NCBI GenBank assembly: GCA_017453305.1
Contig: JAFTKJ010000048.1
Span: 1 to 35,815 of the forward strand
Length of the DNA: 35,815 bases
Direction: 5' to 3'
Origin: Clostridia bacterium
Lineage (GTDB): Bacteria; Bacillota; Clostridia; Oscillospirales; CAG-272
How positions within the stretch are numbered: the first letter of the stretch is position 1; every line of letters begins with the position of its first letter. Below the pieces are notes generated by a model. It saw nothing but the letters and a program-made list of their open reading frames with translations. It did not search any database and was not told where the DNA came from. The position numbers and the translations under genes are program-made. Below are positions 322 through 29,792 of the stretch, in pieces.

Positions 322-329
322 TGTGTATG

Positions 330-2725: not shown

Positions 2726-2734
2726 TTTTTACTG

Positions 2735-2762
2735 TTGACATTTGTTAAAAAATATGTATAAT
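2735..2762 (+). promoter_or_regulatory. SigA-type promoter of the nusB operon
   Basis: TTGACA (2735-2740), 16-base spacer, TATAAT (2757-2762): both hexamers match consensus. Transcription should begin near 2769, which rules out the upstream in-frame ATG codons at 2767 and 2770 as the nusB start. Confidence 0.85.
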
Positions 2763-2844
2763 ATATATGATGGGTTATTATGCGGTCTTATGTCCGATCA
2801 GGGCGAAAAAACTTGCCGCAGAAAAGAAAGGATCTTGCAAGCAT

Positions 2845-14003: not shown

Positions 14004-14032
14004 TTGACAAACAAAACTCGGTGTGCTATAAT
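14004..14032 (+). promoter_or_regulatory. SigA-type promoter of the Ile T-box unit
   Basis: TTGACA (14004-14009), 17-base spacer, TATAAT (14027-14032): full consensus. Transcription should start near 14039, at the beginning of the T-box leader. Confidence 0.88.
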
Positions 14033-14039
14033 ACGAGTA

Positions 14040-14307
14040 ATTTAAAAAAGGCAATGACGAAGAAGGTCGAAATACGAAGCCTCCAGAGAGTCGGGTAAGG
14101 TGAGAACCGACGGTGAACTGTTTCAGGACCCATCACTTCCGAGCCGGAGGCTCCAAAGATTTTGATTGAGTAGAGTGCTCCCGTGATTGCTGCGTTAATG
14201 CATAGGAATTGTTGGATTCCGAGAGTGGCGACTCTGTCGCAATTTGAGTGGTACCGCGAGTGTATTTTCACACCCGTCTCAAAAAAGAGACGGGTGTTTT
14301 ATTTTTT
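14040..14307 (+). promoter_or_regulatory. T-box riboswitch, specifier AUC (isoleucine)
   Basis: Leader with the T-box sequence AATTTGAGTGGTACCGCG (14241-14258). The UGGU bulge would pair with an ACCA tRNA 3' end, fitting the A73 of tRNA-Ile. Stem I: GGC...TGACGAAG on the 5' side pairs as GGC:GCC and GAAG:CUUC with CTTCCGAGCC (14136-14145), giving the K-turn at the base. The AGAGAG bulge and GGTGAGAAC apical element are present. By the spacing seen in glyQS-type leaders (specifier, one purine, then the stem strand) the specifier is ATC at 14132-14134. UUGAG and CUCAA form the competing antiterminator; the terminator is annotated separately. Uncharged tRNA-Ile should switch the downstream genes on. 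Confidence 0.88.
14270..14307 (+). terminator. Regulated terminator of the Ile T-box
   Basis: ACACCCGTCTC (14270-14280) pairs with GAGACGGGTGT (14287-14297) over an A6 loop, followed by TTTATTTTTT. Part of the 5' arm is shared with the antiterminator. Confidence 0.9.
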
Positions 14308-14326
14308 GCCAAGGAGGAAAATAGTT

Positions 14327-16594
14327 ATGGCAAACTTATCATCTAATAAGCTGCAAGAGGTTGCTTTGCGTATTCGCGAAATGCGAGAGATCTTCGATTT
14401 GTCCGAAGAGACTATGGCGCAAAAGACCGAGGTCAGCGTAGAAGAGTATCGCAGATACGAAAGCGGAGAATTGGATTTTCCCTTTACGTTCATTCATAAG
14501 TGCTCTTTGGCGTTTGGCATTGGTATGACCGACCTTTTGGAAGGACGCAGTGCACACCTTTCGTCTTATACCGTCACCAGACGCGGACAGGGACAGCAAA
14601 CCGCAAGGGAAGATGGTATTGAAATTTCCAACCTGGCACCTATGTTCCGCAAAAAGCTGGCTGAGCCTTATTGGGTTCGCTATGAATATAATCCTGATCT
14701 TCAAAGTCGCCCGATCCATTTGACTAAGCACTCCGGTCAGGAATTCGACTTGGTGATGAAGGGAAGACTCAAGGTACAGATCGGTGATAACGTCGAGTAT
14801 CTCGGCGAGGGTGACAGCATCTATTATAACAGCTCAACCCCTCACGGTATGATCGCTGTGGACGGGGAGGATTGTCTCTTTGTTGCGGTTGTCCTTTCGG
14901 GTGAAGAAGAAAAGGAAAACGTGATCCGCGAGACGCTCTTTCCAAATCGTACCCCCAAAAAGGAATTGGTCTGCGATCACTTTATTTCTACCGTCGAGGA
15001 CGAAAACGGATTGTTGCAATCCATTGACTTCCACAACGACGATCAATTTAATTTCGGCTTTGACGTGGTTGACGCAATTGCCAAAAAGGACCCCGACAAG
15101 CTGGCAATGATCCACGTGGATAAGAACAAGGTCGAGCGCCGCTTCACATTTAACGATATGAAGCGTAAATCGGCGCAATGTGCAAACTATTTCAAGTCTC
15201 TCGGCATCAAAAAGGGCGACCGCGTTATGTTGGTGCTCAAGCGTCACTATCAGTTCTGGTTTGCAATCGTTGCATTGCATAAGCTGGGCGCAATCGTCAT
15301 TCCCGCAACCAATCAGCTGCAGGCACATGACTTCGAATATCGCTTCAATGCTGCCGAGGTCAATGCAATTATTTGTACTGCCGACGGTGACGTTGCGCAT
15401 CAGGTTGACCTGGCACAACAAACCTGCCCGATGCTGACCACCAAGGTGTTGGTTGGTGGCAAGCTGGATGGCTGGAGATGCTTTGACGAAGAATTTGAGC
15501 TTTACAGCACACATTTCTATCGCACCGAGGAAACACCCTGCGGTGATGATCTGATGTTGATGTTCTTCACCTCGGGAACTACGGGTTATCCCAAGATCGC
15601 GGCACATACGTATAAGTATCCGCTCGGTCACTTTGTAACGGCAAAGCATTGGCACGGTGTCAGCGACGGCAGCCTCCACTTCACCATTTCCGAAACCGGT
15701 TGGGGTAAGGCTTTGTGGGGCAAGCTTTACGGTCAGTGGCTCTGCGAGGGATCGGTCTTTACCTATGATTTCGATCGCTTTGCCGCATCCGACATTCTCC
15801 CCATGTTTGCAAAATATAACATTACCACCTTCTGCGCACCTCCCACCATGCTGCGTATGATGATCAAGGAGGATATCTCCAAGTACGATCTTTCCTCCAT
15901 CAAGCATATGACCACCGCGGGCGAGGCACTCAACCCCGAAGTTTACCGTCAATTTGAAAAGGCAACGGGCTTGCAGATCATGGAGGGCTTTGGACAGACC
16001 GAATTGACGCTGACCATTGCAAACCTCATCGGCGGTACGCATAAGCTTGGCTCTATGGGTAAGCCGATCCCGTTGTACGACGTTGACATTGTTGACTCCG
16101 ACGGCAACCCCGTAGCAGACGGTGAAACCGGCGAAATCGTGGTACGTACCGACAAAAAGGTTCCTTGCGGACTCTTTGCAGGCTACTACCGCAATGAAGA
16201 AAAGACCGCCGAGGTATGGCATGACGGTATGTACCACACGGGAGATACCGCTTGGCGTGATGAGGATGGTTTTTATTGGTACGTGGGTCGCGTAGACGAC
16301 GTGATCAAGTCCTCCGGTTACCGCATTGGTCCCTTTGAGATCGAAAGCGTCATCATGGAGCTGCCTTACGTGCTTGAATGCGGCGTTTCCGCTGTACCGG
16401 ATGAAGTAAGAGGTCAAATCGTCAAAGCATCGATCGTCCTGACCAAGGGAACCGAGCCCACGGAGGAGCTCAAAAAAGAAATTCAGAATTACGTCAAGGA
16501 GCATACCGCACCCTACAAGTACCCACGTGTGGTCGTATTCCGCGATGAGCTTCCCAAGACTATCAGCGGTAAGATCCAAAGAAATAAGCTTTGA
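14327..16594 (+). CDS. XRE-cupin-acyl-CoA ligase fusion, Ile unit
   Basis: A 755-residue three-part protein. Residues about 9-66 form an XRE-type helix-turn-helix (LRIREMREIFDLSEETMAQ, VSVEEYRRYESG); about 110-190 a cupin_2 domain (HSGQEFDLVMKGRLKV, GDSIYYNSSTPHGM); the rest is an ANL adenylate-forming enzyme of the acetyl/medium-chain acyl-CoA synthetase type. Ligase motifs: FFTSGTTGYPK (near 415), GFGQTE, YHTGDTAWRDEDGFYWYVGR, and the C-terminal catalytic lysine in PKTISGKIQRNKL. ATG 14327 has an AAGGAGG site 9 bases away. Under an Ile T-box it probably activates 2-methylbutyrate to its CoA ester; the substrate is inferred. The front end looks like a XRE-cupin repressor and could sense an acid or regulate DNA. 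A close paralogue lies at 17898. Confidence 0.85.
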   Translation: MANLSSNKLQEVALRIREMREIFDLSEETMAQKTEVSVEEYRRYESGELDFPFTFIHKCSLAFGIGMTDLLEGRSAHLSSYTVTRRGQGQQTAREDGIEISNLAPMFRKKLAEPYWVRYEYNPDLQSRPIHLTKHSGQEFDLVMKGRLKVQIGDNVEYLGEGDSIYYNSSTPHGMIAVDGEDCLFVAVVLSGEEEKENVIRETLFPNRTPKKELVCDHFISTVEDENGLLQSIDFHNDDQFNFGFDVVDAIAKKDPDKLAMIHVDKNKVERRFTFNDMKRKSAQCANYFKSLGIKKGDRVMLVLKRHYQFWFAIVALHKLGAIVIPATNQLQAHDFEYRFNAAEVNAIICTADGDVAHQVDLAQQTCPMLTTKVLVGGKLDGWRCFDEEFELYSTHFYRTEETPCGDDLMLMFFTSGTTGYPKIAAHTYKYPLGHFVTAKHWHGVSDGSLHFTISETGWGKALWGKLYGQWLCEGSVFTYDFDRFAASDILPMFAKYNITTFCAPPTMLRMMIKEDISKYDLSSIKHMTTAGEALNPEVYRQFEKATGLQIMEGFGQTELTLTIANLIGGTHKLGSMGKPIPLYDVDIVDSDGNPVADGETGEIVVRTDKKVPCGLFAGYYRNEEKTAEVWHDGMYHTGDTAWRDEDGFYWYVGRVDDVIKSSGYRIGPFEIESVIMELPYVLECGVSAVPDEVRGQIVKASIVLTKGTEPTEELKKEIQNYVKEHTAPYKYPRVVVFRDELPKTISGKIQRNKL

Positions 16595-16612
16595 TATTTG
16601 AGGAGAGGAAAA

Positions 16613-17524
16613 ATGAAACGCAAGGTAGGAATTTCACTTTTTAATTTACAAACTATGTACGGTGACCGTCGCGCACTTGAAATTGCACATGAGATCGGTG
16701 CCGATGCGGTTGACTTTAATTTGTGTGATGCATATGATTACCGAAGAGCGGGAAATCTGTACGCAAAGAGTGAGGATGAGATCCGTGCATATTTTTCGGA
16801 TCTGCGTCGCTATGCTGCTTCCATGGGGCTTGAGATCTATCAGACCCATGGGCGCGGCACGGGCTTTAAAAATATTCCGGACGAGGATAATGCCTTGGTG
16901 GAAAATGCACGTCTGGATTGTATTGCCACGGCGGCTCTTGGTGCACGCTATTGTGTTTTGCATACCTGTTCCACGATTTTTCTTGATCTATCGGTTGGCA
17001 GTGCATTGATGCATCAGCTTAACGATGACATGTTCTTGCGCATCCTTCCGTATGCAGTGGAAAACGACGTTGTCATTGCAACCGAGACCTTTGGTGATGC
17101 CATCGGAAAAGGCTGCTGTGAATTCTTTGGGAATATGTCAGAGTTCTTTCCTGCTTACGAGCGCATTGCAGCACATAAGGAATTTGCCGATCATTTTTGC
17201 GTTTGCATGGATGTCGGACATACCAATAAGGCAACGCGCTTTAACAACAATCCGCGTCCTGAGGATGCAATTCGCCTGTTAGGATCTCGTATTCGCGTTT
17301 TGCATCTCCACGATAACGATACCATGACAGATCAGCATAAGATCCCGATGACGGGGTGTATCAATTGGAATGCTGTGATGGATGCCTTGGATGAGATTGG
17401 ATACGATGGAGTATATAATCTGGAGGTTGTCCTGACACATTTCGGTAAAGATTTTGCCATCGAAGAGGCGCGTTTTGCAGTACTTGTGATGAGGCAGATT
17501 CTAAAAACAAGATACGGTGCATAA
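16613..17524 (+). CDS. TIM-barrel sugar phosphate isomerase/epimerase-like protein
   Basis: A 303-residue xylose isomerase-like TIM-barrel protein (AP endonuclease 2 family). The metal-site residues of the family are all present: Glu in ATETFGD, Asp and His in CMDVGHTNKA, His in VLHLHDND, and Glu in YNLEVVLTHF. Substrate cannot be read from sequence. It lies 18 bases behind the ligase and shares its T-box, so a role linked to isoleucine supply is implied by context only. ATG 16613 follows a GAGGAGAGG site; an upstream in-frame TTG at 16598 overlaps it. No clear terminator follows; the next promoter starts 30 bases later. Confidence 0.85.
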   Translation: MKRKVGISLFNLQTMYGDRRALEIAHEIGADAVDFNLCDAYDYRRAGNLYAKSEDEIRAYFSDLRRYAASMGLEIYQTHGRGTGFKNIPDEDNALVENARLDCIATAALGARYCVLHTCSTIFLDLSVGSALMHQLNDDMFLRILPYAVENDVVIATETFGDAIGKGCCEFFGNMSEFFPAYERIAAHKEFADHFCVCMDVGHTNKATRFNNNPRPEDAIRLLGSRIRVLHLHDNDTMTDQHKIPMTGCINWNAVMDALDEIGYDGVYNLEVVLTHFGKDFAIEEARFAVLVMRQILKTRYGA

Positions 17525-17553
17525 TTTGCACGAAAAAAATCGAAAAAAACCTA

Positions 17554-17582
17554 TTGACAAAGTTCTAAAGATGTGATAAAAT
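17554..17582 (+). promoter_or_regulatory. SigA-type promoter of the Val T-box unit
   Basis: TTGACA (17554-17559), 17-base spacer, TAAAAT (17577-17582). It is laid out like the Ile promoter, with one -10 mismatch. Confidence 0.82.
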
Positions 17583-17589
17583 AGTACAT

Positions 17590-17869
17590 ATTCATAGAAA
17601 GGCGTTGACGAAAAGGATGCAAGCAGGCGAACCGTGCAGAGAGTTGGCGGTTGGTGCAAGCCAATGGGGAGCGTTTGTGTCTGTAGTTTCCGAGCCGAAG
17701 GGAAGAACAAGCTTGCGCTTCAGTAGACCCCTTCCGTGATTGCTGCGTTAATGCATAGGAGCTGTTTGGCTCCAAGAGAGGCGATTTAATTCGCAATTTG
17801 AGTGGTACCGCGGGTGTTTTCAATTGCACTCGTCTCAAGGTTATTTCACTTTGGGGCGAGTGCATTTTT
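17590..17869 (+). promoter_or_regulatory. T-box riboswitch, specifier GUA (valine)
   Basis: T-box sequence AATTTGAGTGGTACCGCG at 17795-17812, identical to the Ile leader; the UGGU bulge again fits an A73 tRNA such as tRNA-Val. Stem I base: GGC (17601-17603) with GCC (17693-17695) and GAAA with UUUC, flanking the K-turn; AGAGAG (17638-17643) and GGTTGGTGCAAGCC form the upper elements. Applying the same geometry gives specifier GTA at 17683-17685, followed by G. A 27-base block around the TGCGTTAATGCA element (17734-17760) is identical to 14181-14207 of the Ile leader, showing common descent. Uncharged tRNA-Val should turn the operon on. Confidence 0.87.
17826..17869 (+). terminator. Regulated terminator of the Val T-box
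   Basis: GCACTCGTCTCAA (17826-17838) pairs, with two G-U pairs, to TTGGGGCGAGTGC (17851-17863), followed by ATTTTTC. It competes with the UUGAG/CUCAA antiterminator. Confidence 0.87.
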
Positions 17870-17897
17870 CGTCCCGAGAAGAAACGGAGAGAAAAAA

Positions 17898-20186
17898 ATG
17901 AAACAAATGAGCGGACTGGATTTTAAGATCCTGGAAATGGCGGAGCGTATTCGCGAGCTTCGTGAGATCACCCGTTACACCCCCGAGGAAATGGCCTCTA
18001 AAACCGACGTGTCGGTTGAGGAATATATGGCTTGTGAGAACGGGCAGAGTGATTTGAACTTTGCATTTATTTATCGTTGCGCGTTGGCGTTTGGCGTCAA
18101 CGTTACCGATATTATCGACGGTGTCAGCCCGACCTTGAAATCTTATACCGTTACGCGCAGCGGCGCTGGACAGCGCATTGAGCAGGCACACGGTATGACC
18201 TATTACAACCTTGCGCACGCCTTTCAAAACCGTATTGCCGAGCCGTTGTACGTTCGTAGCGGATACAGTGAGGAGGCACAGCATAGGGATATTGAACTGA
18301 CTACGCACGCAGGTCAGGAATGCGATATTGTTATTTCCGGACATCTGATGGTGCAGGTTGGCTCTCACAAGGAAGTCCTGCGTCCCGGCGACAGCATTTA
18401 TTACGATAGTAGCACGCCTCACGGTATGATCGCGGTGGATGGGCAGGATTGTGAATTCTACGCAATCGTCCTCAATCCTACGGGTGAGCCGATTCCCGAA
18501 TTGATGCCCACAAAGCTGGTGCAGGGAAGACCTACCCTACAAAAGGATACCAAGGAGCGCATTTACCAAAAGTTTATCGACGTTGAGGAAAACGAAAACG
18601 GCACTCCTACCTCCATTCAATTTAAAAATACCGAGCATTTCAACTTTGCTTTCGATCTTGTGGACGCACTTGCGGAAAAAGAACCGAACAAGCTTGCAAT
18701 GCTTCACATTTCCAATGACAAAACCGAGCGTCGCTTTACCTTCAAGGATATCAAAAAGGCTTCCGCGCAATGCGCAAACTACTTCAAGTCTCTTGGAATC
18801 AAGAGAGGCGACCGTGTCATGCTGGTGCTTAAGCGCCACTATCAGTTCTGGTTTGCAATGCTGGGACTGAATAAGCTTGGTGCCATTGCAATTCCTGCAC
18901 CTAATCAGCTCCAGGAGCACGATTTTGAGTATCGTTTTCAAGCGGCCGGGGTTAGTGCTATTCTTTGCACCGCAGATGGCGACACCGCACACCAGGTAGA
19001 GCTTGCGGCGAAAAAATGCCCTGAACTAAAGCACTTTATGCTGGTAGGCGGAGAGCGCGAGGGCTGGCGTAGCTTTAACGAAGAGTATACGCTTTACAGC
19101 TCTCATTACAATCGTACCGAGGATGCGCCCGGAGGAGATGACTTGATGCTGATGTTCTTTACGTCCGGCACTACGGGGTATCCAAAGATCGCTGCACATA
19201 ATTACAAATATGCACTCGGTCATTTCCACACCGCAAAGTATTGGCACAGTGCCGATCCTAACGGCTTGCATTTTACCATTTCCGATACCGGTTGGGCTAA
19301 GGCGATGTGGGGCAAGCTCTATGGTCAATGGTTGTGTGAGGCGGCGACCTTCGTTTACGACTTCGATCGTTTTGACGCAGCGGAAATTCTTCCGATGTTT
19401 GCAAAATACAACATTACGACCTTCTGCGCACCTCCTACCATGCTGCGCATGATGATCAAGCAGGACATTTCCAAATACGATCTTTCTTCCGTCAAGCATA
19501 TGACAACGGCAGGCGAAGCGCTCAACCCCGAGGTCTATCGTCAGTTTGAAAAGGCAACCGGCTTGCAGATTCTGGAAGGCTTTGGTCAGACTGAGAGCAC
19601 CATGATCATCGGCAACATGATCGGTGCGTCGCATAAGATTGGATCCATGGGTAAGCCTGCACCAATTTACGACGTGTCTCTTGTTGACGCCAATGGGGAT
19701 CCCGTCGACGTAGGTGAAACGGGCGAGATCGTGGTCAACGTTCAAAACGGTGCACCGTGCGGACTCTTTACCGGTTACTATCGCGACGCCGAAAAGACCG
19801 CAGAAGTATGGCACGACGGCTACTATCATACGGGTGACCTTGCATGGAAGGATGAGGATGGCTTCTATTGGTACGTGGGACGTGCCGACGACGTCATCAA
19901 GTCCTCCGGCTATCGCATCGGTCCCTTTGAGATCGAGAGTGTGATCATGGAGCTGCCTTACGTGCTGGAGTGTGGTGTATCCGCCGCTCCCGACGAGGTA
20001 AGAGGACAGATCGTCAAGGCATCCATCGTTCTGACCAAGGATACCGAGCCTACGGATGAGCTCAAAAAAGAAATTCAGAATTACGTCAAGGAGCATACCG
20101 CTCCCTACAAATATCCGCGTCTTGTGGTGTTCAGAGATGAGCTTCCCAAAACGACCAGCGGAAAAATTCAGAGGAATAAATTATGA
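17898..20186 (+). CDS. XRE-cupin-acyl-CoA ligase fusion, Val unit
   Basis: A 762-residue paralogue of the protein at 14327 with the same order: XRE helix-turn-helix (about 12-70; MAERIRELREITRYTPEEMA, VSVEEYMACENG), cupin (HAGQECDIVISGHLMVQV, GDSIYYDSSTPHGM), then the ANL ligase (FFTSGTTGYPK, GFGQTES, YHTGDLAWKDEDGFYWYVGR, and the lysine in PKTTSGKIQRNKL). The last 150 residues are almost identical to the Ile copy, while the XRE and cupin parts differ more, so substrate or ligand recognition may have diverged. By its Val T-box it probably activates isobutyrate; this is inference. ATG 17898 lies behind GGAGA; the frame stays open upstream into the terminator, which cannot be coding. Confidence 0.85.
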   Translation: MKQMSGLDFKILEMAERIRELREITRYTPEEMASKTDVSVEEYMACENGQSDLNFAFIYRCALAFGVNVTDIIDGVSPTLKSYTVTRSGAGQRIEQAHGMTYYNLAHAFQNRIAEPLYVRSGYSEEAQHRDIELTTHAGQECDIVISGHLMVQVGSHKEVLRPGDSIYYDSSTPHGMIAVDGQDCEFYAIVLNPTGEPIPELMPTKLVQGRPTLQKDTKERIYQKFIDVEENENGTPTSIQFKNTEHFNFAFDLVDALAEKEPNKLAMLHISNDKTERRFTFKDIKKASAQCANYFKSLGIKRGDRVMLVLKRHYQFWFAMLGLNKLGAIAIPAPNQLQEHDFEYRFQAAGVSAILCTADGDTAHQVELAAKKCPELKHFMLVGGEREGWRSFNEEYTLYSSHYNRTEDAPGGDDLMLMFFTSGTTGYPKIAAHNYKYALGHFHTAKYWHSADPNGLHFTISDTGWAKAMWGKLYGQWLCEAATFVYDFDRFDAAEILPMFAKYNITTFCAPPTMLRMMIKQDISKYDLSSVKHMTTAGEALNPEVYRQFEKATGLQILEGFGQTESTMIIGNMIGASHKIGSMGKPAPIYDVSLVDANGDPVDVGETGEIVVNVQNGAPCGLFTGYYRDAEKTAEVWHDGYYHTGDLAWKDEDGFYWYVGRADDVIKSSGYRIGPFEIESVIMELPYVLECGVSAAPDEVRGQIVKASIVLTKDTEPTDELKKEIQNYVKEHTAPYKYPRLVVFRDELPKTTSGKIQRNKL

Positions 20187-20845
20187 TAAACAAACGTGTT
20201 TTGTTGCTGTGCGGTCATTACGGAAGCGGCAAAACCAACATTGCGGTCAATCTTGCATTTCGGTTAAAGGAAGAATATCCAACCGTTACGATTGCTGACC
20301 TTGACATTGTCAATCCTTACTTTCGCAGTAAGGATAGTGCCAAGGAGCTTGAGGCAGCGGGAATTCGCTTGATCTGTTCCAATTACGCCAACAGCAACGT
20401 TGATATTCCCGCACTCCCACCCGATCTCTACGCCCTGACAGACGACCGCCGCATGCGTGCGGTGATCGACGTTGGCGGTGATGATCGCGGTGCGCTGGTG
20501 CTTGGTCGTATTGCTCCGGCTCTCCTGGAGGAGAACGACTACGAGATGCTGATGGTCATCAATTGCTACCGCCCCCTGACGCGTGATGCCGCATCCACCA
20601 TTGAGGTGATGCGAGAGATTGAGGTCGCAGGCGGAGTGCGCTTTACGGGATTGGTTAACAACTCTAATCTTGGTACCGAAACAACGCCCGAGGACGTGCT
20701 TGCCTCCGTACCGTATGCCAATGAGGTTTCCGCGCTTTGCGGTTTGCCTCTTGTTATGACAACAGCAGAGAAGGAAATTGCGGCAAAGCTTGAAGGAAAG
20801 ATATCCAACCTGCTTCCATTAGACCTGCAAAAGAAGATTCAATGA
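20183..20845 (+). CDS. P-loop ATPase (MinD/ParA/CobQ-like), role unknown
   Basis: A 220-residue soluble P-loop protein. Walker A CGHYGSGKTNIAVNLA (about 10-25), a switch-type TIADLDIVNPYFRSKD, and the second motif RAVIDVGGDDRGALVLGR. The fold resembles SIMIBI-class ATPases (MinD, CooC, CobQ), but the deviant 'signature lysine' position means it is not a plain ParA. Its ATG overlaps the ligase stop (ATGA) and the ferredoxin/VOR genes follow, so it could help metallocentre or complex assembly as CooC does for CO dehydrogenase. That role is a guess from position. Confidence 0.75.
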   Translation: MINKRVLLLCGHYGSGKTNIAVNLAFRLKEEYPTVTIADLDIVNPYFRSKDSAKELEAAGIRLICSNYANSNVDIPALPPDLYALTDDRRMRAVIDVGGDDRGALVLGRIAPALLEENDYEMLMVINCYRPLTRDAASTIEVMREIEVAGGVRFTGLVNNSNLGTETTPEDVLASVPYANEVSALCGLPLVMTTAEKEIAAKLEGKISNLLPLDLQKKIQ

Positions 20846-20888
20846 TATTTCGCAGACCTCGTCTGCAGTAATAAAGGAGTACATAAAC

Positions 20889-21095
20889 ATGGCAAAATTA
20901 ACATTTAAGACCGACAATTGTAAGGGTTGCGGACTGTGTGTGGACGCTTGCCCTAAAAAGGTGCTTCGTTTGGCACCTGATAAGATCAACAAAAAGGGAC
21001 ATCACCCCGTAGAGGCTGAAAAGCCCGAGGCTTGTATCGGTTGTGCATTCTGCGCAACCATGTGTCCCGATTGCATTATCACAGTGGAAAGGTGA
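20889..21095 (+). CDS. vorD: 4Fe-4S ferredoxin subunit of 2-oxoacid:ferredoxin oxidoreductase (VorD-like)
   Basis: A 68-residue protein with two 4Fe-4S binding motifs: CKGCGLCVDACPKK (about 14-27) and CIGCAFCATMCPDC (about 47-60). This is the small delta subunit or domain that passes electrons between the thiamine enzyme and free ferredoxin. It precedes alpha, beta and gamma subunits, which is a usual order for VOR/KOR-type complexes. An AAAGGAG site lies before ATG 20889. Confidence 0.88.
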   Translation: MAKLTFKTDNCKGCGLCVDACPKKVLRLAPDKINKKGHHPVEAEKPEACIGCAFCATMCPDCIITVER

Positions 21096-21103
21096 GTAGA
21101 ACA

Positions 21104-22174: not shown

Positions 22175-22932
22175 TGGTAGTATTTGAAAAACCGCATGCA
22201 TTGGCAGACGTGCCTCTGCATTATTGCCCCGGCTGTACCCACGGTATCGTTCACCGCTTGGTTGCCGAGGTCATTGACGAATTGGGCATCGAGGGAAGAA
22301 CCATTGGCGTTGCTCCCGTTGGATGCTCGGTTATGGCTTACAATTATTTTAACTGTGATATGATCGAAGCGGCACACGGACGTGCTCCAGCCGTTGCAAC
22401 CGGCGTTAAGCGCGCAAACCCCGAGGAGCACATCGTCTTTACCTACCAGGGTGACGGTGACCTTGCCTCCATCGGTATGGCAGAGACGGTACACGCTGCC
22501 GCAAGAAACGAAAATATCACCATTATCTTTATCAACAATGCGATCTACGGCATGACGGGCGGTCAGATGGCGCCCACGTCGCTCCCCGGACAGGTCACCC
22601 AAACCTCTCCTTACGGTCGTGACGTCAAGGCCTGCGGTTATCCGATCCGCGTTTGCGAAATGCTTTCTGAGCTGGAAGGCCCCGAGTACCTCGCACGCGT
22701 GACCGTGAATAACGTTAAGAACGTAAACAACGCGAAAAAGGCGATCAAAAAGGCGTTCCAAAATCAAATTGAGGGCAAGGGCTTTTCCTTGGTAGAGGTG
22801 CTTTCCACCTGTCCTACCAACTGGGGTATGACTCCGCAGAAGGCTCTGCAATGGATCGATGAAAAAATGATCCCGTATTATCCTTTGGGTGTTTATAAAG
22901 ATAGAAGCGCAAAGGAGGAGTCGGCACAATGA
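22174..22932 (+). CDS. vorA: 2-oxoacid:ferredoxin oxidoreductase beta subunit, TPP-binding (VorA-like)
   Basis: A 252-residue thiamine diphosphate-binding subunit. It has the N-terminal YCPGCTHGIVHRLVAEV motif, the TPP/Mg motif YQGDGDLASIGMAE...NN (about 88-125) and IYGMTGGQMAPTS. The single CPGC motif and separate ferredoxin subunit fit the four-subunit VOR/KOR type. Substrate cannot be proved by sequence; the BCAA aminotransferase and Val T-box in the same unit point to 2-oxoisovalerate and related branched-chain acids. It overlaps the gamma subunit start by four bases. Confidence 0.92.
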   Translation: MVVFEKPHALADVPLHYCPGCTHGIVHRLVAEVIDELGIEGRTIGVAPVGCSVMAYNYFNCDMIEAAHGRAPAVATGVKRANPEEHIVFTYQGDGDLASIGMAETVHAAARNENITIIFINNAIYGMTGGQMAPTSLPGQVTQTSPYGRDVKACGYPIRVCEMLSELEGPEYLARVTVNNVKNVNNAKKAIKKAFQNQIEGKGFSLVEVLSTCPTNWGMTPQKALQWIDEKMIPYYPLGVYKDRSAKEESAQ

Positions 22933-23462
22933 GCACAAAGCAAATGTTATTTTCCGGCTTTGGCGGACAGGGAATTCTGTTTGCCGGAAAGTTTATCGCT
23001 TATAAGGGATTGATGGAGGAAAAGCAGGTCAGCTGGTTGCCTTCCTACGGTCCCGAGATGCGCGGCGGTACTGCAAGCTGCAGTATCATTGTCAGCGATG
23101 AGCCCGTAGGCTCTCCCATTGTTTCCAATCCCGACGTTCTGGTTGCTATGAACCTGCCTTCCTTGGATAAGTTTGAGGCTACCGTTGCACCGGGCGGCAT
23201 GATCTTTGCAGATTCCACACTGATCGAGCGCAAGGTAGAGCGCACCGACCTCAAGGTGTTCTACATTCCCGCAACACAGCTTGCAAGTGAGAATGGAATG
23301 GCAACGCTCGCCAATATGATCATTGTAGGAAAGATCCTCAAGGAGCTTGGCGAATACGACGAAGAAAAGATCACAGATGCTTTGAAGAAGGTCATTTCCG
23401 CAAAGCGTGCCGATATGTTGGAAACAAATCTTAAGGCAATGCGCATTGGCGCAGAGAACTGA
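22929..23462 (+). CDS. vorC: 2-oxoacid:ferredoxin oxidoreductase gamma subunit (VorC-like)
   Basis: A 177-residue gamma subunit. Signature FSGFGGQGILFAGK (about 8-21), then VSWLPSYGPEMRGGTASC, both typical for the family. It completes the alpha-beta-gamma-delta complex encoded in this unit. The start overlaps the beta stop (ATGA) behind AAAGGAGG. Confidence 0.92.
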   Translation: MSTKQMLFSGFGGQGILFAGKFIAYKGLMEEKQVSWLPSYGPEMRGGTASCSIIVSDEPVGSPIVSNPDVLVAMNLPSLDKFEATVAPGGMIFADSTLIERKVERTDLKVFYIPATQLASENGMATLANMIIVGKILKELGEYDEEKITDALKKVISAKRADMLETNLKAMRIGAEN

Positions 23463-23489
23463 TTTTTATCAGTAAAAAGGAGAAATACC

Positions 23490-24563
23490 ATGTTGAATAT
23501 TTCGATTACGAAAACCACCAGCCCGAAGGAAAAGCCCGACAGCGCAACCCTGGGCTTTGGTAAAAAGTTTACCGATCACATGCTGATCGTGGATTATTCT
23601 CACGAAAAGGGCTGGTACAATGCCAGAATTATTCCGTTTGCAAACCTTTCCTTGCATCCCGCGTCCACCGTATTGCACTATGGCTCCGAGATCTTTGAGG
23701 GTATGAAGGCATATCGCCGCGCCGACGGAAAGGTTCAGCTTTTCCGCCCTTTGGAGAACATTCGCCGCATGAACAACTCCGCAGAGCGCTTGTGCTTGCC
23801 GCAGATGCCCGAGGAGGATATGTTGCAGGCACTCCTGACCTTTGTGGAGTTGGAGCAGGATTGGACACCCTCCGCACCCGGAACCTCTCTTTATCTGCGT
23901 CCGTTCCTCTTTGGTAACGACGAAACGCTCGGCGTACACGCAGTACATAACGCAACCTTTGTCATTATTGCATCTCCCGTAGGAAGCTACTATGCAGAGG
24001 GCATCAATCCCGTTAAGATCATGATCGAGGACGAGGACGTTCGCGCGGTCAGAGGCGGTACGGGCTACGCAAAGTGCGGCGGTAACTATGCCGCAAGTAA
24101 CCGCGCAGGGGAAAGAGCCGCGCAAAAGGGCTATTCTCAGGTTCTTTGGCTTGACGGCGTGGAGCGCAAATATATCGAAGAAGTTGGCGCTATGAACGTT
24201 ATGTTCAAGATCAACGGAGAGATCATCACGCCTATGCTTTCCGGATCGATCCTTCCCGGTATCACGCGCAAATCCTGCATTGAGGTTCTCAAAGCAAAGG
24301 GCTACAACGTCACCGAGCGCTTGCTCAGCATCGACGAGCTTTCCAACGCGATGGAAAACGGAACCTTGGAGGAGGCTTGGGGTTGCGGAACCGCTGCCGT
24401 CATTTCTCCCATTGGCGAGTTCTGCTACAAGGACGTTCGCTATACCGTAAACAACGGTGAGATCGGAAAAGTATCCCAGGAGCTTTACGATACCTTGACA
24501 GGAATTCAATGGGGCAAGATCGAGGATACCTACGGCTGGACTTATCTGATTGAAAATAATTGA
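23490..24563 (+). CDS. ilvE: Branched-chain amino acid aminotransferase
   Basis: A 357-residue fold-type IV PLP enzyme that makes Val, Ile and Leu from their 2-oxoacids with glutamate. Motifs: EIFEGMKAYRRADGKVQLFRP (67-87), the PLP lysine Lys195 in TGYAKCGGNYAAS, and YIEEVGAMNVMFKI. Length matches the larger Gram-positive/eukaryote-like BCAT group. Its place at the end of the Val T-box unit, right behind VOR, gives the last step of the proposed acid-to-amino-acid route. The Leu promoter starts 18 bases after its stop, with no strong terminator between them, so read-through into the Leu leader is possible. Confidence 0.94.
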   Translation: MLNISITKTTSPKEKPDSATLGFGKKFTDHMLIVDYSHEKGWYNARIIPFANLSLHPASTVLHYGSEIFEGMKAYRRADGKVQLFRPLENIRRMNNSAERLCLPQMPEEDMLQALLTFVELEQDWTPSAPGTSLYLRPFLFGNDETLGVHAVHNATFVIIASPVGSYYAEGINPVKIMIEDEDVRAVRGGTGYAKCGGNYAASNRAGERAAQKGYSQVLWLDGVERKYIEEVGAMNVMFKINGEIITPMLSGSILPGITRKSCIEVLKAKGYNVTERLLSIDELSNAMENGTLEEAWGCGTAAVISPIGEFCYKDVRYTVNNGEIGKVSQELYDTLTGIQWGKIEDTYGWTYLIENN

Positions 24564-24581
24564 AAAAATTTTCAAAAGCTC

Positions 24582-24610
24582 TTGACAAATAAACAAACAA
24601 GTGGTATAAT
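24582..24610 (+). promoter_or_regulatory. SigA-type promoter of the Leu T-box unit
   Basis: TTGACA (24582-24587), 17-base spacer, TATAAT (24605-24610): full consensus, directly behind ilvE. Confidence 0.88.
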
Positions 24611-24616
24611 AAAGCA

Positions 24617-24895
24617 TATTTTTTGAAATGCGTTGAGGGAATTATTTCTTTTTGACACTCTTTTCAGAGAAGCGGCGGTCGGTGCGAGCCGTAAAAGAGA
24701 AAAAGGAAAGTCTCATTCCGGAGCAGGATCGCAGAACCCAATCGGTAGTAAGCGGTCACGGCATGCACCGTTATCAGGGCAAGGGACTTGATGGAGTCCT
24801 ATGAGGTGACCGATTTGATATCGGTAACCGGGGTGGTACCGCGAATGTTGTCATTCGTCCCCGAGGCAGAGTTTACACTGCCTCGGGGATTTTTG
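24617..24895 (+). promoter_or_regulatory. T-box riboswitch, specifier CUC (leucine)
   Basis: T-box sequence AACCGGGGTGGTACCGCG at 24826-24843; UGGU bulge again fits A73. Stem I base: TGC with GCA and GGAA with UUCC around a K-turn of the GTTGAG type; the GGTCGGTGCGAGCC apical element lies near 24677-24690. With the same geometry as the other two leaders (specifier, purine, four-base stem strand, then GGAGCA) the specifier is CTC at 24712-24714, the codon also used by Bacillus leu leaders. The stem III region differs from the Ile and Val leaders, so this T-box was not derived from the same recent duplication. Confidence 0.87.
24859..24895 (+). terminator. Regulated terminator of the Leu T-box
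   Basis: CCCCGAGGCAG (24859-24869) pairs perfectly with CTGCCTCGGGG (24878-24888), followed by ATTTTTG. Confidence 0.9.
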
Positions 24896-24939
24896 TATGT
24901 ATACGAGGCAGAATTTTTTCAAATGAGGAGAACACTATC

Positions 24940-26325
24940 ATGAAACGAATCAAAATTGCAGACGCTACACTTTGTTGTGCTGAGAGTTCTTTTTCCTTTA
25001 AGGAAAAGATCGAAATCGCACGTCAATTGGAAAAGCTGGATGCGGACATTATTGAAATGCCCGAAATTCAAAACGCGCGCATTGATACCTTACTGATCAA
25101 AACCGTTTCCACATTTGTTAAAAACAGCGTGATCTCGGTGGCGGCAGGCTCTACGGCTGAGAGTGTAGAGAATGCAATCGCGGCACTTTCCAATGCGGTG
25201 CATTCCCGTGTTCGTATCGAGTTGCCCGTTTCTCCCGTCAGCATGGAATACGTTTGCCACAAAAAGCCGGATAAGATGCTTACATGGATCGAAAAGGTTG
25301 TTGCCATGGCAAAGGGAAATTGCGAGGAATTGGAATTTTGTGCTTTGGATGCAACACGCGCCGAATCGGATTTTCTTATCAAAGCGCTCAACACCGCTGT
25401 TGCGGCAGGCGCCGATGAGGTGACCGTTTGTGAGGATGCGGGTGAGATGCTGCCCAATGATTTTGCAGCCTTTGTAAGGGGCATTACCGCAGCAGTCACC
25501 GTTCCCGTAAGCGTTCGTTGCAGCAACAAGAACGCAATGGCGTGCGCAAATGCCATTCTGGCAGTTGAGGCAGGCGCTGCAGGCGTTAAGACCGCTGTAG
25601 GAGATCAAACCGTTTCTTTGGAAAAATTTGCGGATATGATCAAAAATTGCGGCAATCATTACGGCTTTTCCTCCGACATCCGCTACACTGAGCTTCACCG
25701 CATCATCAAACAGATTGGCTGGGTTTTGAGCAATGCAAAGAACGCAAAGGGCACCGTAGGTACGGTGAGCGCGGATGCAGAGCCCGTACACCTGGACACC
25801 AATGACGATAAAGACACGGTTTCTGCCTCCGTTGCAAAGCTTGGATACGATCTGTCCGAGGAGGATAAAACGCGCGTTTATGAGGAGTTTTTGCGTGTCG
25901 CAGAAAAGAAAAAGGTTGGGGCAAAGGAGCTGGAGGCTATCGTTGCAAGCGTAGCATTGCAGGTTCCTCCCACGTATGAGCTGGTCAGCTACGTGGTCAA
26001 CAGCGGAAACGTCATTTCCACAAGTGCCCAGATCACTCTGAAAAAGGACGGCGAGCAGATGCCCGGTATTTGCCTGGGTGACGGTCCTATTGACGCCGCA
26101 TTCCGTGCCATCGAGCAGATCATCGGTCACCGCTATGAATTGGACGATTTCCAGATTCAGGCAGTTACCGAGGGCGCCGAGGCAATGGGCTCTGCGTTGG
26201 TCAAGCTTCGCTCTGATGGAAAGCTGTATTCCGGAAACGGTATTTCCACCGATATTATCGGTGCGGGCATTCGTGCCTACATCAACGCCGTCAATAAGAT
26301 CGTTTACGAGGAGGCATCCGTATGA
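24940..26325 (+). CDS. LeuA-like (2-isopropylmalate synthase family) protein lacking canonical metal ligands
   Basis: A 461-residue protein with the two-part LeuA layout: an N-terminal HMGL-like TIM barrel (about 1-265) and a C-terminal LeuA allosteric domain (about 345-455; YELVSYVVNSGN, the ICLGDGPIDAAF and GAGIRAYINAVNKI motifs). The C-terminal domain is well kept. The active site is not: the TLRDGEQ motif reads TLCCAES, and the HCHND motif reads RCSNKN, so the catalytic Arg, metal Asp and both metal His are replaced. The Leu T-box supports a leucine link. It may be inactive as a synthase and act as a leucine sensor or scaffold, or use altered chemistry. Start ATG 24940 lies behind GAGGAG; its stop overlaps the next gene (ATGA). 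Confidence 0.8.
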   Translation: MKRIKIADATLCCAESSFSFKEKIEIARQLEKLDADIIEMPEIQNARIDTLLIKTVSTFVKNSVISVAAGSTAESVENAIAALSNAVHSRVRIELPVSPVSMEYVCHKKPDKMLTWIEKVVAMAKGNCEELEFCALDATRAESDFLIKALNTAVAAGADEVTVCEDAGEMLPNDFAAFVRGITAAVTVPVSVRCSNKNAMACANAILAVEAGAAGVKTAVGDQTVSLEKFADMIKNCGNHYGFSSDIRYTELHRIIKQIGWVLSNAKNAKGTVGTVSADAEPVHLDTNDDKDTVSASVAKLGYDLSEEDKTRVYEEFLRVAEKKKVGAKELEAIVASVALQVPPTYELVSYVVNSGNVISTSAQITLKKDGEQMPGICLGDGPIDAAFRAIEQIIGHRYELDDFQIQAVTEGAEAMGSALVKLRSDGKLYSGNGISTDIIGAGIRAYINAVNKIVYEEASV

Positions 26326-28829
26326 AATTCTCGTTTTCAACCAAGGGGTGGCATAACCACACGTTTGAGGAGTTTTGTGAGATCGCTTCCGCAATGAACT
26401 TTGAGGGAATTGAGCTTCACAACATTAATAACAGCATGTTTACCGATAAAGACGGCGCTTTTTACGATTACGCCGCCGCGGCGACTCTGCGTCGCATGTA
26501 TGAGCGCAAGCTTTGCATTCCTTGCATCGACGCCATTTGCGATCCCGCGGATGCCGCCGCTAAGGAAACCAATATCACGGAGATACGCAAATGCATGCAG
26601 ATCGCATCCAATTTGCACATTCCCAACATCCGTCTGCGCGCCAACGCCGCACAAGACGAGGACACCGCGGTAGAGAACACCGCCGCCGTAATTGCGGAGC
26701 TGCTTCCCGAGGCAGAGCGCATCGGCGTTACGCTTTTAATGGAAACCGCAGGGCTGTTTGTAAGAACCGAAAAGCTCAGAGCCTTGCTTGACCGCTTTGC
26801 AAGTGACTATTTTGCATCTCTTTGGAATTTCTCCGCCGCTTATTTTGACGGTGGCGAATCCCCCGAGCAGATCATCAAAAATTTGGGCGCGTACGTACGC
26901 CACGTACACATCAGCGATGCCAAAAAAACGGAGGAAGGCATGGAGCATTGCCTGATCGGCGAGGGTGACCTTCCCATCAAGGATATGATGCTGGCTCTGC
27001 GCTCCGTCAACTACGACGGCTTCCTCTCTTTGGTGTGGGATCCCGCATGGTGTGAGGAGCTTGACGATATGGAGATCATCTTCTCTCAGTTTGTCGGCTT
27101 TATGCGCCAATTCAACGATCCCGCAAGAAATGAAAAAACGCTCTACTACAACCGTGCACACACAGGTAAGTTCGTTTGGAAAAAGGATCTTTTGATCGAT
27201 TTGACATTCTCCGAGGTACTGGATCGCATGGTAGAGGAGTTCCCGGACCAATACGCATTCAAGTATACAACGCTTGATTACACCCGTACCTATAGCGAGT
27301 TCCGCGATGACGTAGATGAATTTGCACGCTCCCTGGTTGCGCTGGGCGTAAAGGCAGGTTCACACGTTGCTGTTTGGGCTTCCAACGTACCGCAATGGTA
27401 CATCGCCTTTTGGGCAACGGTAAAAATCGGCGCGGTTCTTGTCACCGTCAATACCGCATATAAGATTCACGAGGCAGAGTATCTTCTCAAGCAATCGGAT
27501 ACGCATACCCTGATTTTGACCGAGGGCTCCAAGGATACGCACTATGGCAAGATTATTGCCGAGCTTTGCCCCGAGCTCGCCTCTCTCAAGCCCGGTATGG
27601 CTCTGCACAGTAAACGCTTACCCTTCCTTCGCAATGTCATTACCGTTGGTTTCCGTCAAAAGGGCTGCATGGATTGGAACGATGCGCTGGAGCGCGCCCA
27701 TCAAACTCCCGTCAGCGAGGTCTACCGTATGGCAGCGGCAGTTAACAAGGACGACGTCTGCAACATGCAATATACCTCCGGAACAACGGGATTCCCCAAG
27801 GGCGTTATGCTGACGCACTATAACGTCGTCAACAATGGTAAATACATTGGTGACCACATGGATCTTTCCACAGCTGACCGCATGATGATCCAGGTACCCA
27901 TGTTCCACTGCTTTGGAATGGTGCTTTCCATGACCGCATCCATGACGCACGGTACCACTATGCTGCCGCTTCCGTATTTTTCACCCAAGCCGGCACTTGC
28001 GTGCGTGCACAATGAGCACATCACCGCATTCAACGGCGTTCCTACCATGTTTATTGCCATGATGGAGCACGAAGACTTTGCAAAGACCGATTTCTCCTAT
28101 ATGCGCATCGGTATTATGGCAGGCTCCAACTGTCCCGCCGACTTGATGAAAAAAGCAACGCAGGTAATGAACATGAAGGAGATCGTATCCGTTTACGGTC
28201 AGACCGAGGCGTCTCCCGGATGTACCATGAGCAGCTATTACGATACGCTTGAGGTACGTACGGAAACGGTTGGAAGTGCCTTTGCAAACGTCGAGTGCAA
28301 GATCATTGATCCCGAAACGGGCGAGGATTGCCCCGATGGTGTCAACGGCGAATTTGTGGCACGCGGCTACAATATTATGAAGGGCTACTACAAAATGCCC
28401 GAGGCAACCGCATCCGCAATCAATGCCGAGGGCTGGTTGCATACGGGTGACTTGGCTTGCCGCACTCCCGAGGGCAACTACCGTATTACTGGTCGCCTGA
28501 AGGATATGATCATTCGCGGCGGCGAGAACATTTATCCCAAAGAAATTGAAGAATTTATTTACACCTGTCCCAAGGTCAGTGACGTGCAGGTGATTGGTGT
28601 CCCCGACGAAAAGTACGGCGAGGAGATCATGGCATGCGTGATCCTCAAGGAGGGTGAGAGCATGACCGAGCAGGAAATGAAGGAGTTTGTTGCGGCAAGC
28701 ATGGCGCGTCACAAGGTGCCGAGATACGTCGATTTTGTCGACGCGTTCCCGATGAATGCCGCAGGTAAGATCCTCAAGTACAAAATGCGTGAAAACGCAG
28801 TCGAAAAGCTCGGCTTGAAAAAAGGATGA
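26322..28829 (+). CDS. TIM-barrel / acyl-CoA ligase fusion, Leu unit
   Basis: An 835-residue fusion. Residues 1 to about 265 are an AP-endonuclease-2/xylose-isomerase-like TIM barrel; about 290-830 are a FadD-like AMP-forming acyl-CoA ligase with MQYTSGTTGFPKGVMLTHYN (near 481), VYGQTEASP, GWLHTGDLACRTPEGNYRI, KDMIIRGGENIYPKEIEEF and the catalytic lysine in NAAGKILKYK. In the barrel the usual metal set Glu-Asp-His-Glu is incomplete: Glu in LMETAGLF and His in HVHISDA remain, but the expected Asp is Asn in SLWNFSAAYF and the last Glu is Val in LSLVWDP. The ligase differs from the two XRE-cupin ligases and is a distinct lineage. Isovalerate is the likely acid from the Leu T-box, by inference. 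Confidence 0.85.
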   Translation: MKFSFSTKGWHNHTFEEFCEIASAMNFEGIELHNINNSMFTDKDGAFYDYAAAATLRRMYERKLCIPCIDAICDPADAAAKETNITEIRKCMQIASNLHIPNIRLRANAAQDEDTAVENTAAVIAELLPEAERIGVTLLMETAGLFVRTEKLRALLDRFASDYFASLWNFSAAYFDGGESPEQIIKNLGAYVRHVHISDAKKTEEGMEHCLIGEGDLPIKDMMLALRSVNYDGFLSLVWDPAWCEELDDMEIIFSQFVGFMRQFNDPARNEKTLYYNRAHTGKFVWKKDLLIDLTFSEVLDRMVEEFPDQYAFKYTTLDYTRTYSEFRDDVDEFARSLVALGVKAGSHVAVWASNVPQWYIAFWATVKIGAVLVTVNTAYKIHEAEYLLKQSDTHTLILTEGSKDTHYGKIIAELCPELASLKPGMALHSKRLPFLRNVITVGFRQKGCMDWNDALERAHQTPVSEVYRMAAAVNKDDVCNMQYTSGTTGFPKGVMLTHYNVVNNGKYIGDHMDLSTADRMMIQVPMFHCFGMVLSMTASMTHGTTMLPLPYFSPKPALACVHNEHITAFNGVPTMFIAMMEHEDFAKTDFSYMRIGIMAGSNCPADLMKKATQVMNMKEIVSVYGQTEASPGCTMSSYYDTLEVRTETVGSAFANVECKIIDPETGEDCPDGVNGEFVARGYNIMKGYYKMPEATASAINAEGWLHTGDLACRTPEGNYRITGRLKDMIIRGGENIYPKEIEEFIYTCPKVSDVQVIGVPDEKYGEEIMACVILKEGESMTEQEMKEFVAASMARHKVPRYVDFVDAFPMNAAGKILKYKMRENAVEKLGLKKG

Positions 28830-28835
28830 TAGAAC

Positions 28836-29648
28836 ATGATTCAAAATAAATACGAGGTCATTGACGCACACTGTCACATCTATCCCGAAAAGATCGTGGA
28901 TCGCGCAGTTGCGGGTACGGATGCCTTTTACTCCACACGCGCCGCTTGTCGCGGCGTGGCGGGGGAGCTTTTGGAAATCGGTGAGCGCGTTGGAATTGAC
29001 CGCTTTGTGGTGCAATCGGTTGCCACCACGCCAAAGCAAGTTTCCAGCATCAATCACTTTATCGCTGCCGAGGTCGAAAAAGCCCCTACGCGCTTTACGG
29101 GCTTGGGGGCGGCGCACCCCGACTGTGAGGATCAGGATGCGGTGATTGAAGAGATCAAATCTCTGCATTTGCACGGTATCAAGATCCACCCCGACATTCA
29201 GGGCTTTGCCATTGACGACGCGCGCATGATGCGTGTATACGAACGGTGCGAGGAGGAGGGCTTGGTTGTGCTGATGCACACGGGCGATCATCGCTACGAT
29301 TTTTCCAATCCCAACCGCTTGTTGCCGGTGCTCAAGGCGTTTCCGCGCTTAACGGTAATCGGCGCGCATTTTGGCGGTTGGTCGGTATGGGACGATGCCT
29401 CGCGTAAGCTGTGCGATTTTCCCAATCTGTATGTAGATTGCTCCTCTACGTTTCCGTTTGCCAATCAGGATCTCTCGCTTGGCGAAACACTGATCCACCG
29501 TTACGGAGCGGATCGCGTTATGTTTGGCAGTGATTTTCCCATGTGGTCACCCAAGGATGAGCTGGAGACCTTTATGAAGCTTCGTTTAACCGACGAAGAA
29601 CGCCGCATGATCCTATCCGAAAACGCAAAGCGCGTTTACAAAATCTAA
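28836..29648 (+). CDS. Amidohydrolase family 2 (TIM-barrel metal hydrolase)
   Basis: A 270-residue amidohydrolase-related protein with EVIDAHCHIYPEKI (metal HxH), a central GIKIHPDIQGF, LMHTGDH, VIGAHFGG and RVMFGSDFPMW containing the conserved Asp. All expected metal residues seem present. Family members hydrolyse or decarboxylate diverse small acids; the substrate here is unknown. It is the last gene of the Leu T-box unit, starting six bases after the ligase, so it may process an acid or lactone in the same pathway. Confidence 0.85.
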   Translation: MIQNKYEVIDAHCHIYPEKIVDRAVAGTDAFYSTRAACRGVAGELLEIGERVGIDRFVVQSVATTPKQVSSINHFIAAEVEKAPTRFTGLGAAHPDCEDQDAVIEEIKSLHLHGIKIHPDIQGFAIDDARMMRVYERCEEEGLVVLMHTGDHRYDFSNPNRLLPVLKAFPRLTVIGAHFGGWSVWDDASRKLCDFPNLYVDCSSTFPFANQDLSLGETLIHRYGADRVMFGSDFPMWSPKDELETFMKLRLTDEERRMILSENAKRVYKI

Positions 29649-29651
29649 AAC

Positions 29652-29697
29652 AAACAGCATCAAAGAGAGCGAATTGCCTTTTTTGATGCTGTTTTTG
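29652..29697 (+). terminator. Terminator of the Leu unit
   Basis: AAACAGCATCAAA (29652-29664) pairs perfectly with TTTGATGCTGTTT (29682-29694) over a 17-base loop, followed by a short T run. It closes the branched-chain locus. Confidence 0.85.
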
Positions 29698-29792
29698 AAT
29701 ACAAAACGAAGTATGGAAATGTCATTTTTCTGCGCTTTTACAATGTGAAGCAGACAATAAAACGGGGCCATCTGCTTTTTATCAAAAAAGTA

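Follow-up and report, generated by a model that had tools for sequence, protein, structure and literature searches.

Here, we describe a locus of a Clostridia genome that is very likely a biosynthetic salvage system for branched-chain acids, in which each of three acyl-CoA ligase units would be gated by a T-box leader for the amino acid that the unit helps to make, isoleucine (Ile), valine (Val) or leucine (Leu). Judged from the sequence, the support for this reading is strong in the case of Val and Ile and moderate in that of Leu. The locus lies on a 35.8-kb contig, referred to below as the window (the whole stretch of DNA that was analysed), of a genome (G000) that comprises 2.63 Mb in 119 contigs and is 80% complete. 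It has long been known that rumen and hindgut anaerobes require isobutyrate, 2-methylbutyrate and isovalerate, which they combine with CO2 to form amino acids, and T-boxes turn genes on when charged tRNA is short.

In the proposed route, branched acids from gut neighbours would enter the cell and be activated by AMP-forming ligases, with 2-methylbutyrate, isobutyrate and isovalerate as the predicted substrates of the Ile, Val and Leu units, respectively. A shared ferredoxin-dependent 2-oxoacid oxidoreductase of the VOR type (VOR), presumably working in the reductive direction, would turn acyl-CoA, CO2 and reduced ferredoxin into 2-oxo acids, which the branched-chain aminotransferase IlvE would transaminate to Ile, Val or Leu. 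The uncharged matching tRNA is predicted to switch on transcription of the corresponding ligase unit. The genes for VOR and IlvE lie within the Val unit, and in a shortage of Ile or Leu only, their supply could possibly come from read-through of the Ile unit, basal transcription or other copies.

The three T-box leaders were confirmed as real by a covariance-model search with Rfam RF00230 (Table 1). Each aligns to the full length of the model (1 to 219) and carries the T-box sequence (UGGNACCGCG), an AGAGA element, a specifier loop and a terminator. An earlier note, made from the letters of this DNA, had read the leaders with their promoters and terminators and had assigned them the specifier codons AUC, GUA and CUC; the covariance-model alignment indeed places these three codons in the specifier loops of the Ile, Val and Leu leaders. 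As positive controls, the same specifier reading gave AUC upstream of ileS and UUC upstream of pheST in the same genome, both genes being identified by profile scores over cut-off. The three best promoter-like sites of the region are located directly 5' of the leaders, and the three top-ranked terminator-like hairpins at the leader 3' ends. The totals of such sites in the region are no more than expected by chance (18 vs 16.1 for promoters and 19 vs 18.7 for terminators), so the promoter and terminator evidence lies in rank and position.

Profile searches, which took in 19 window proteins rather than every open reading frame (ORF), recovered the gene content that had been proposed: one acyl-CoA ligase per leader, a VOR-type oxidoreductase with its ferredoxin, and IlvE, with none of ilvB, ilvC, ilvD, leuB, leuC or leuD among the proteins scanned. 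They also revealed genes and domains that the earlier note had not included, namely a LeuA-like gene, helix-turn-helix (HTH)-cupin domains on two of the ligases, two TIM barrels (one fused, one separate), a P-loop protein and an amidohydrolase. The HTH_3 match of the Ile ligase is weak (21.3 bits, cut-off 23), and the HTH match of the Val ligase passes.

Table 1. Features of the three T-box units in the window
Feature	Positions	Strand	Evidence
Promoter, Ile unit (TTGACA-17-TATAAT)	14004..14032	+	12/12 consensus match
T-box leader, specifier AUC (Ile)	14045..14284	+	RF00230 80.2 bits, E 2.6e-16
Intrinsic terminator, Ile leader	14270..14297	+	Among three top-ranked terminator-like hairpins of region
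HTH-cupin-acyl-CoA ligase fusion, 755 amino acids, predicted 2-methylbutyrate--CoA ligase (Ile unit)	14327..16594	+	Pfam HTH_3, Cupin_2, AMP-binding; 3ETC E 4e-183
AP_endonuc_2 TIM-barrel protein, 303 amino acids (Ile unit)	16613..17524	+	Pfam
Promoter, Val unit	17554..17582	+	11/12 consensus match
T-box leader, specifier GUA (Val)	17596..17840	+	RF00230 92.3 bits, E 2e-19
Intrinsic terminator, Val leader	17825..17864	+	Among three top-ranked terminator-like hairpins of region
HTH-cupin-acyl-CoA ligase fusion, 762 amino acids, predicted isobutyrate--CoA ligase (Val unit)	17898..20186	+	Pfam, NCBIfam, 3ETC E 2e-186
P-loop (ParA/Mrp-like) protein, 220 amino acids (Val unit)	20183..20845	+	Sub-cut-off Pfam matches only
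2[4Fe-4S] ferredoxin / delta subunit, 68 amino acids	20889..21095	+	Fer4 families
VorB, alpha subunit of 2-oxoacid:ferredoxin oxidoreductase	21104..22174	+	NF005507 549 bits, cut-off 399
Thiamine pyrophosphate-binding beta subunit	22174..22932	+	PF02775
Gamma subunit	22929..23462	+	PF01558
IlvE, branched-chain aminotransferase (Val unit)	23490..24563	+	TIGR01123 400 bits, cut-off 250
Promoter, Leu unit	24582..24610	+	12/12 consensus match
T-box leader, specifier CUC (Leu)	24624..24865	+	RF00230 112.3 bits, E 1.4e-24
Intrinsic terminator, Leu leader	24857..24890	+	Among three top-ranked terminator-like hairpins of region
Pseudo-LeuA, 461 amino acids, first gene of Leu unit	24940..26325	+	PF00682 (HMGL), PF08502 (LeuA_dimer)
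TIM barrel-acyl-CoA ligase fusion, 835 amino acids, predicted isovalerate--CoA ligase	26322..28829	+	AP_endonuc_2, AMP-binding; NCBIfam PRK12583
Amidohydro_2 family protein, 270 amino acids (Leu unit)	28836..29648	+	PF04909
Hairpin + T run, probable terminator of Leu unit	29648..29698	+	Read by eye

A genome scan with the two HTH-cupin-fused ligases confirmed at least 576 relatives, and the best 80 were kept as related loci. These are labelled mostly as Clostridia metagenome-assembled genomes (MAGs) from rumen and hindgut, and two of them as Spirochaetes. Specifiers were parsed in the 80 loci and the window by applying one constant geometry, with the 3' end of stem I as its anchor; 19 T-box cores were not parsable by the script. 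The comparison in relatives that had been suggested for this locus revealed that each orthologous gene keeps its amino acid: with the window included, an Ile specifier was found in 41 of 42 parsed Ile-ligase leaders, a Val specifier in 60 of 60 Val-ligase leaders (52 GUA, 7 GUC and 1 GUG) and a Leu specifier in 12 of 12 Leu leaders (11 CUC and 1 CUG). The count includes the odd Ile leader (L037, CGA), which the script has probably mis-parsed. In the proper frame, the specifiers vary at the third position only, and synonymously. Shifting the frame by one base either way yielded mostly His/Cys/Ser or Ser/stop/Ser for the Ile/Val/Leu leaders; reading two bases upstream was consistent too (Pro in 29/42, Leu in 46/60 and Val in 10/12), but with the wrong amino acid for each gene. 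In one locus (L093, about 20-3100), the Val and Ile leaders share 82% identity when the specifier is masked, yet the Val leader reads GUC instead of AUC. It looks like a copy of the Ile leader with a changed specifier, which would represent a natural switch following the gene.

Gene content was also conserved among these loci. Both Ile- and Val-type ligases were present in 53 of the 80. Of these 53 loci, 48 contain VorB (the other five stretches stop at a contig end), 41 IlvE, 26 pseudo-LeuA and 25 the Leu ligase. In eight loci (L050, L057, L068, L072, L086, L087, L088 and L097), the pseudo-LeuA and Leu ligase genes are located upstream of the Ile ligase gene in the same direction. All three units, each with its own T-box core, were observed in 13 of the 80 loci.

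Profile searches of the 80% complete own genome found no match for ilvC or ilvD, and the only leuC-type match proved to be an aconitase (971 bits, cut-off 612). As LeuA-type matches, the searches gave the pseudo-LeuA of the window, a 479-amino-acid protein and a weak fragment, and no long-type LeuA match was present in this genome. The 479-amino-acid protein adjoins the genes for aconitase and NADP isocitrate dehydrogenase and had no NCBIfam match at E 1e-50; we tentatively take it to be a citrate-synthase-type enzyme of the glutamate branch, since the ilvC-bearing congeners G009, G012 and G013 have a like pair of matches plus a LeuA of their own. The genuine long-type LeuA proteins of the congeners reach only 170-210 bits with the LeuA model used, so its cut-off is not decisive.

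The relatives gave a consistent picture. Within a genus sample of 19 genomes (own included), ilvC occurs in four (G009, G012, G013 and G018), 13 have a fused ligase that matches strongly (E below 1e-180; two of these matches are partial), and only G012 has both. In an order-wide sample of 147 genomes, ilvC is present in 9 of 48 with a fused ligase vs 67 of 99 without (Fisher p 2e-8), and in a class-wide sample of 343 genomes in 19 of 60 vs 181 of 283 (p 6e-6), p-values that overstate independence as the two samples overlap and their genomes are related. With a close Val-type ligase, ilvC was found in 2 of 15 genomes order-wide (at least 67% identity) and in 0 of 17 class-wide (at least 68% identity; p 2e-7, read with the same caution). 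The fused-ligase lists of both samples were compiled by hand from match rows, and ilvD and leuC were sought in 30 relatives only. Thus, when the relatives were checked for ilvC, as had been proposed, most carriers were without it. One of the ilvC-bearing congeners, G013, has ilvA, leuA, leuC, leuD, leuB, ilvB, ilvN, ilvC and ilvD (leuD and ilvN named by eye) after two T-boxes, the second reading AUC in the covariance-model alignment and the first, truncated, CUC by eye; in G009, a T-box reading CUC is located 5' of leuA and ilvB. This implies that sister species use one and the same set of amino acid signals to control either synthesis or salvage.

The Ile and Val ligases of the window are 69% identical to each other, and a tree of 129 sequences (48 Ile-type and 81 Val-type, assigned according to the window protein that each matched best) separated them into two clades with one label change. 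From residue 216 on, three positions split the clades at 85% or more, and one of these without exception: position 467 (Val ligase numbering) carries Ala in all 81 Val-type and Gly in all 48 Ile-type sequences. The nearest solved structure for both ligases is 3ETC (MacsMa of Methanosarcina acetivorans; E 2e-186 and 4e-183). According to PMC10455477, MacsMa prefers 2-methylbutyrate, and its Trp259, positioned where acetyl-CoA synthetase has its acyl-pocket Trp, is critical for substrate binding. The discriminating residue corresponds to Gly255 of MacsMa, four residues before Trp259 (numbering offset fixed by hand from the published Tyr460 and Arg490). In the same alignments, position 467 is Ala in a 4-hydroxybutyrate ligase, Val in an acetyl-CoA synthetase and Ile in ACSM2A. 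A third, more distant ligase type (about 60% identical) branches as sister to the Ile- and Val-type ligases and combines Gly with AUC leaders, and two related ligases without a T-box have Leu. A further 24 loci gave 22 ligase rows, of which the 14 with a parsed specifier were all consistent (Gly with AUC in 7, Ala with GUA in 7); several of these loci seem to repeat earlier ones (L006/L033, L009 and L032/L060) or the window (L003), the new rows are mainly of the third type, and in three of the 14 a second triplet from a later GAG site was offered and the first taken. We suggest the Gly/Ala difference at position 467 as a hypothesis for substrate specificity.

The best NCBIfam match of both ligases is MbcS of Staphylococcus aureus (NF047394; 441 and 442 bits), about half of the equivalog cut-off of 850, which is not reached. 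In PMC10026030, MbcS is described as using 2-methylbutyrate and isobutyrate well and isovalerate poorly, and its known role is the priming of branched-chain fatty acid synthesis. It could thus be supposed that the window ligases likewise feed membrane fatty acid synthesis and that amino acids are a side product. We consider this improbable in view of the linkage of VorB (48/53) and IlvE (41/53) to two-ligase loci, the separate Ile, Val and Leu T-boxes and the lack of ilvC in most carriers; a dual role in fatty acid and amino acid supply is possible.

The Leu unit begins with a gene whose product we refer to as pseudo-LeuA. It shares the HMGL and LeuA_dimer domains with 2-isopropylmalate synthase LeuA, and these domains are what would favour another explanation, that only Val and Ile are salvaged and Leu is made from 2-oxoisovalerate by a LeuA-type route with an active enzyme here. 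This is very improbable, given a comparison of 23 pseudo-LeuA members (22 loci and the window) with three genuine LeuA proteins of relatives: neither the RDGEQ catalytic motif nor the HxHND metal-binding motif (HxH ligands), present in all three genuine proteins, is kept in any of the 23, and the LeuA stretch 276-335 after the barrel is mostly missing (56% gaps). The leuC-type match of the own genome being an aconitase argues in the same direction. The glutamate of the catalytic motif, at EDxxR, is kept in 6 of the 23. LeuA-invariant residues are retained to 58% in the LeuA_dimer part vs 37% in the catalytic part, the PF08502 match reaches 104 bits, and the scores against TIGR00973 and PRK00915 (235 and 266 bits) are far from the cut-offs of 598.7 and 532. 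From this loss of catalytic and metal motifs with a kept regulatory domain, we infer that pseudo-LeuA may be a leucine sensor acting on the Leu ligase; the cupin domains of the other two ligases might be feedback sensors as well.

The Leu ligase falls into another group of ligases, similar to PRK12583 (654 bits, cut-off 832). In 22 sequences, columns conserved at 85% make up 22% of its fused TIM barrel vs 63% of its ligase part. The use of another ligase type in the Leu unit is the fit expected from the poor handling of isovalerate by the MbcS type. The earlier proposal that each ligase activates the acid matching its tRNA, with VOR and IlvE shared, appears strong for Val and Ile and moderate for Leu.

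The reverse, catabolic direction, in which amino acids would be transaminated, oxidised by VOR and released as acids from their acyl-CoAs with energy gain, might be considered because both VOR and IlvE can run in either direction and annotations usually give VOR a catabolic role, but it is the least probable of the explanations given the AMP-forming family of the ligases, which favours activation, the T-boxes on all three units and the lack of ilvC in most carriers.

Several observations, besides the non-independence of the genome samples, weigh against biosynthetic salvage as proposed or limit its extent. The gathering score of RF00230 (93) is passed by the Leu leader alone, the Val (92.3) and Ile (80.2) leaders being below it; in six related loci searched at this score, all six Leu leaders and one Ile leader passed and the other 11 Ile and Val leaders failed. 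A T-box core was located within 400 nucleotides upstream of the Ile ligase gene in 41 of 53 cases, of the Val ligase gene in 71 of 80 and of the pseudo-LeuA gene in 15 of 26, and 27 of the 80 loci have a Val-type ligase with no Ile-type ligase in the available stretch. The gene absences of the own genome, at 80% completeness, would have to lean on its relatives, and among these the fused ligase and ilvC occur together in 9/48, 19/60 and G012, so that salvage does not replace de novo synthesis in every genome. Ala at position 467 is also found in three unfused outgroup ligases, so Ala alone is not proof of isobutyrate use and the residue is a specificity hypothesis. The weakest step is the substrate of the Leu ligase, for which isovalerate is suggested by the T-box, the neighbouring genes and elimination.

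The physiology of branched-acid reductive carboxylation in rumen bacteria was reportedly described by Allison and co-workers in the 1960s. The net chemistry (acid + CO2 to amino acid) is the same as proposed here; the genes and the tRNA-sensing control come from the present analysis. One paper of that rumen work is cited in PMC7356843. In the literature searched, as far as its texts were available and with subscription journals and preprints outside it, no description was found of tRNA-gated units, a dead LeuA or a residue/specifier match. The words 'acyl' and 'ferredoxin' are absent from the main text of a T-box survey (PMC2494555), as far as that text was accessible, and a paper on a Geobacter T-box and isobutyrate concerns leuA. 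The chemistry as such is old knowledge.

Among known systems, the T-boxes of ilv/leu operons (RF00230) represent the same RNA class and the same amino acids, and two congeners have them on leuA and ilvA operons; unlike these, the T-boxes of the window control acid-activating ligases, with one amino acid per ligase. MacsMa, the closest solved relative by sequence, has Gly at the discriminating position as do the Ile ligases, but the match covers the ligase part only (from about residue 237/242) and MacsMa is without the HTH-cupin part. We know of no T-box control of MacsMa.

The locus proposes genes for the whole branched-acid route, which would give a genetic basis to a rumen nutrient requirement described decades ago, and bears on the feeding of branched acids to ruminants. 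As the T-box codon labels each ligase with its product, the substrates of genes annotated as 'acyl-CoA synthetase' become testable one by one. Such loci could also be used to sort uncultured gut Clostridia genomes into acid-dependent and self-sufficient species, and they offer a conserved pseudo-enzyme and a one-residue specificity hypothesis for study.

With regard to the remaining genes, the separate TIM-barrel gene was considered as a ligase partner and dropped from the core, as just one of the 80 related loci has it, with 25% identity; it is probably outside the core pathway. The P-loop protein gene lies between the Val ligase and ferredoxin genes and is present in 52 of 80 loci. The Amidohydro_2 gene occurs in 15 of 80, all with both Ile- and Val-type ligases. 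The stretch of the probable terminator of the Leu unit is also a sub-threshold Rfam match to patAB. The two Spirochaetes-labelled loci (L103 and L108; Spirochaetaceae/Spirochaetales MAGs) contain close relatives of the Val ligase (74% identity), one of them with a T-box core, and reflect either gene transfer or binning error.

T-box units for other amino acids were also observed. In the own genome (L155, contig C41, 1317-6930, minus strand), a Tyr T-box (UAC) precedes a 544-amino-acid acyl/aryl-CoA ligase, IorA (717 bits, cut-off 650.9), IorB and a PaaK-type ligase (548 bits, below the cut-off of 646). In the congener G007 (L161, contig C7, 7506-12290, minus strand), a Phe T-box (UUC) stands before the genes for a PaaK-type ligase and, as named by eye, a protein with an ACT domain, and this unit adjoins an Ile-specifier T-box with an HTH-cupin-ligase of the third type. 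These operons suggest that the same salvage logic may apply to arylacetates. Complete replacement of aromatic synthesis by such salvage was not supported, prephenate dehydratase being present in 26 of 30 genomes searched, own included; this implies that arylacetate salvage would be an addition. It is tempting, though with a little less than even confidence, to envisage the locus as part of a broader scheme in which acid scavenging is under the control of uncharged tRNAs (Ile, Val and Leu from branched acids, Tyr and Phe from arylacetates), pseudo-LeuA senses leucine and the cupins act likewise, and one Gly/Ala residue sets 2-methylbutyrate vs isobutyrate.

Three further T-boxes were found in the own genome. 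A Val T-box (GUC; 139.8 bits) on contig C43 (L156, 510-3413) lies about 54 nucleotides before an 875-amino-acid ORF, an unusual target for a Val T-box; the start of this ORF is helicase-like, with a P-loop, and the search at E 1e-30 gave no NCBIfam match. On contig C74 (L158, 450-2401), a T-box reading UAC (Tyr) by eye precedes a sodium/solute symporter. Finally, a UGG (Trp) T-box on the minus strand of contig C29 (L157, 3372-5047) precedes a TrpB-like enzyme, and this unit may perhaps represent indole salvage in the same style.

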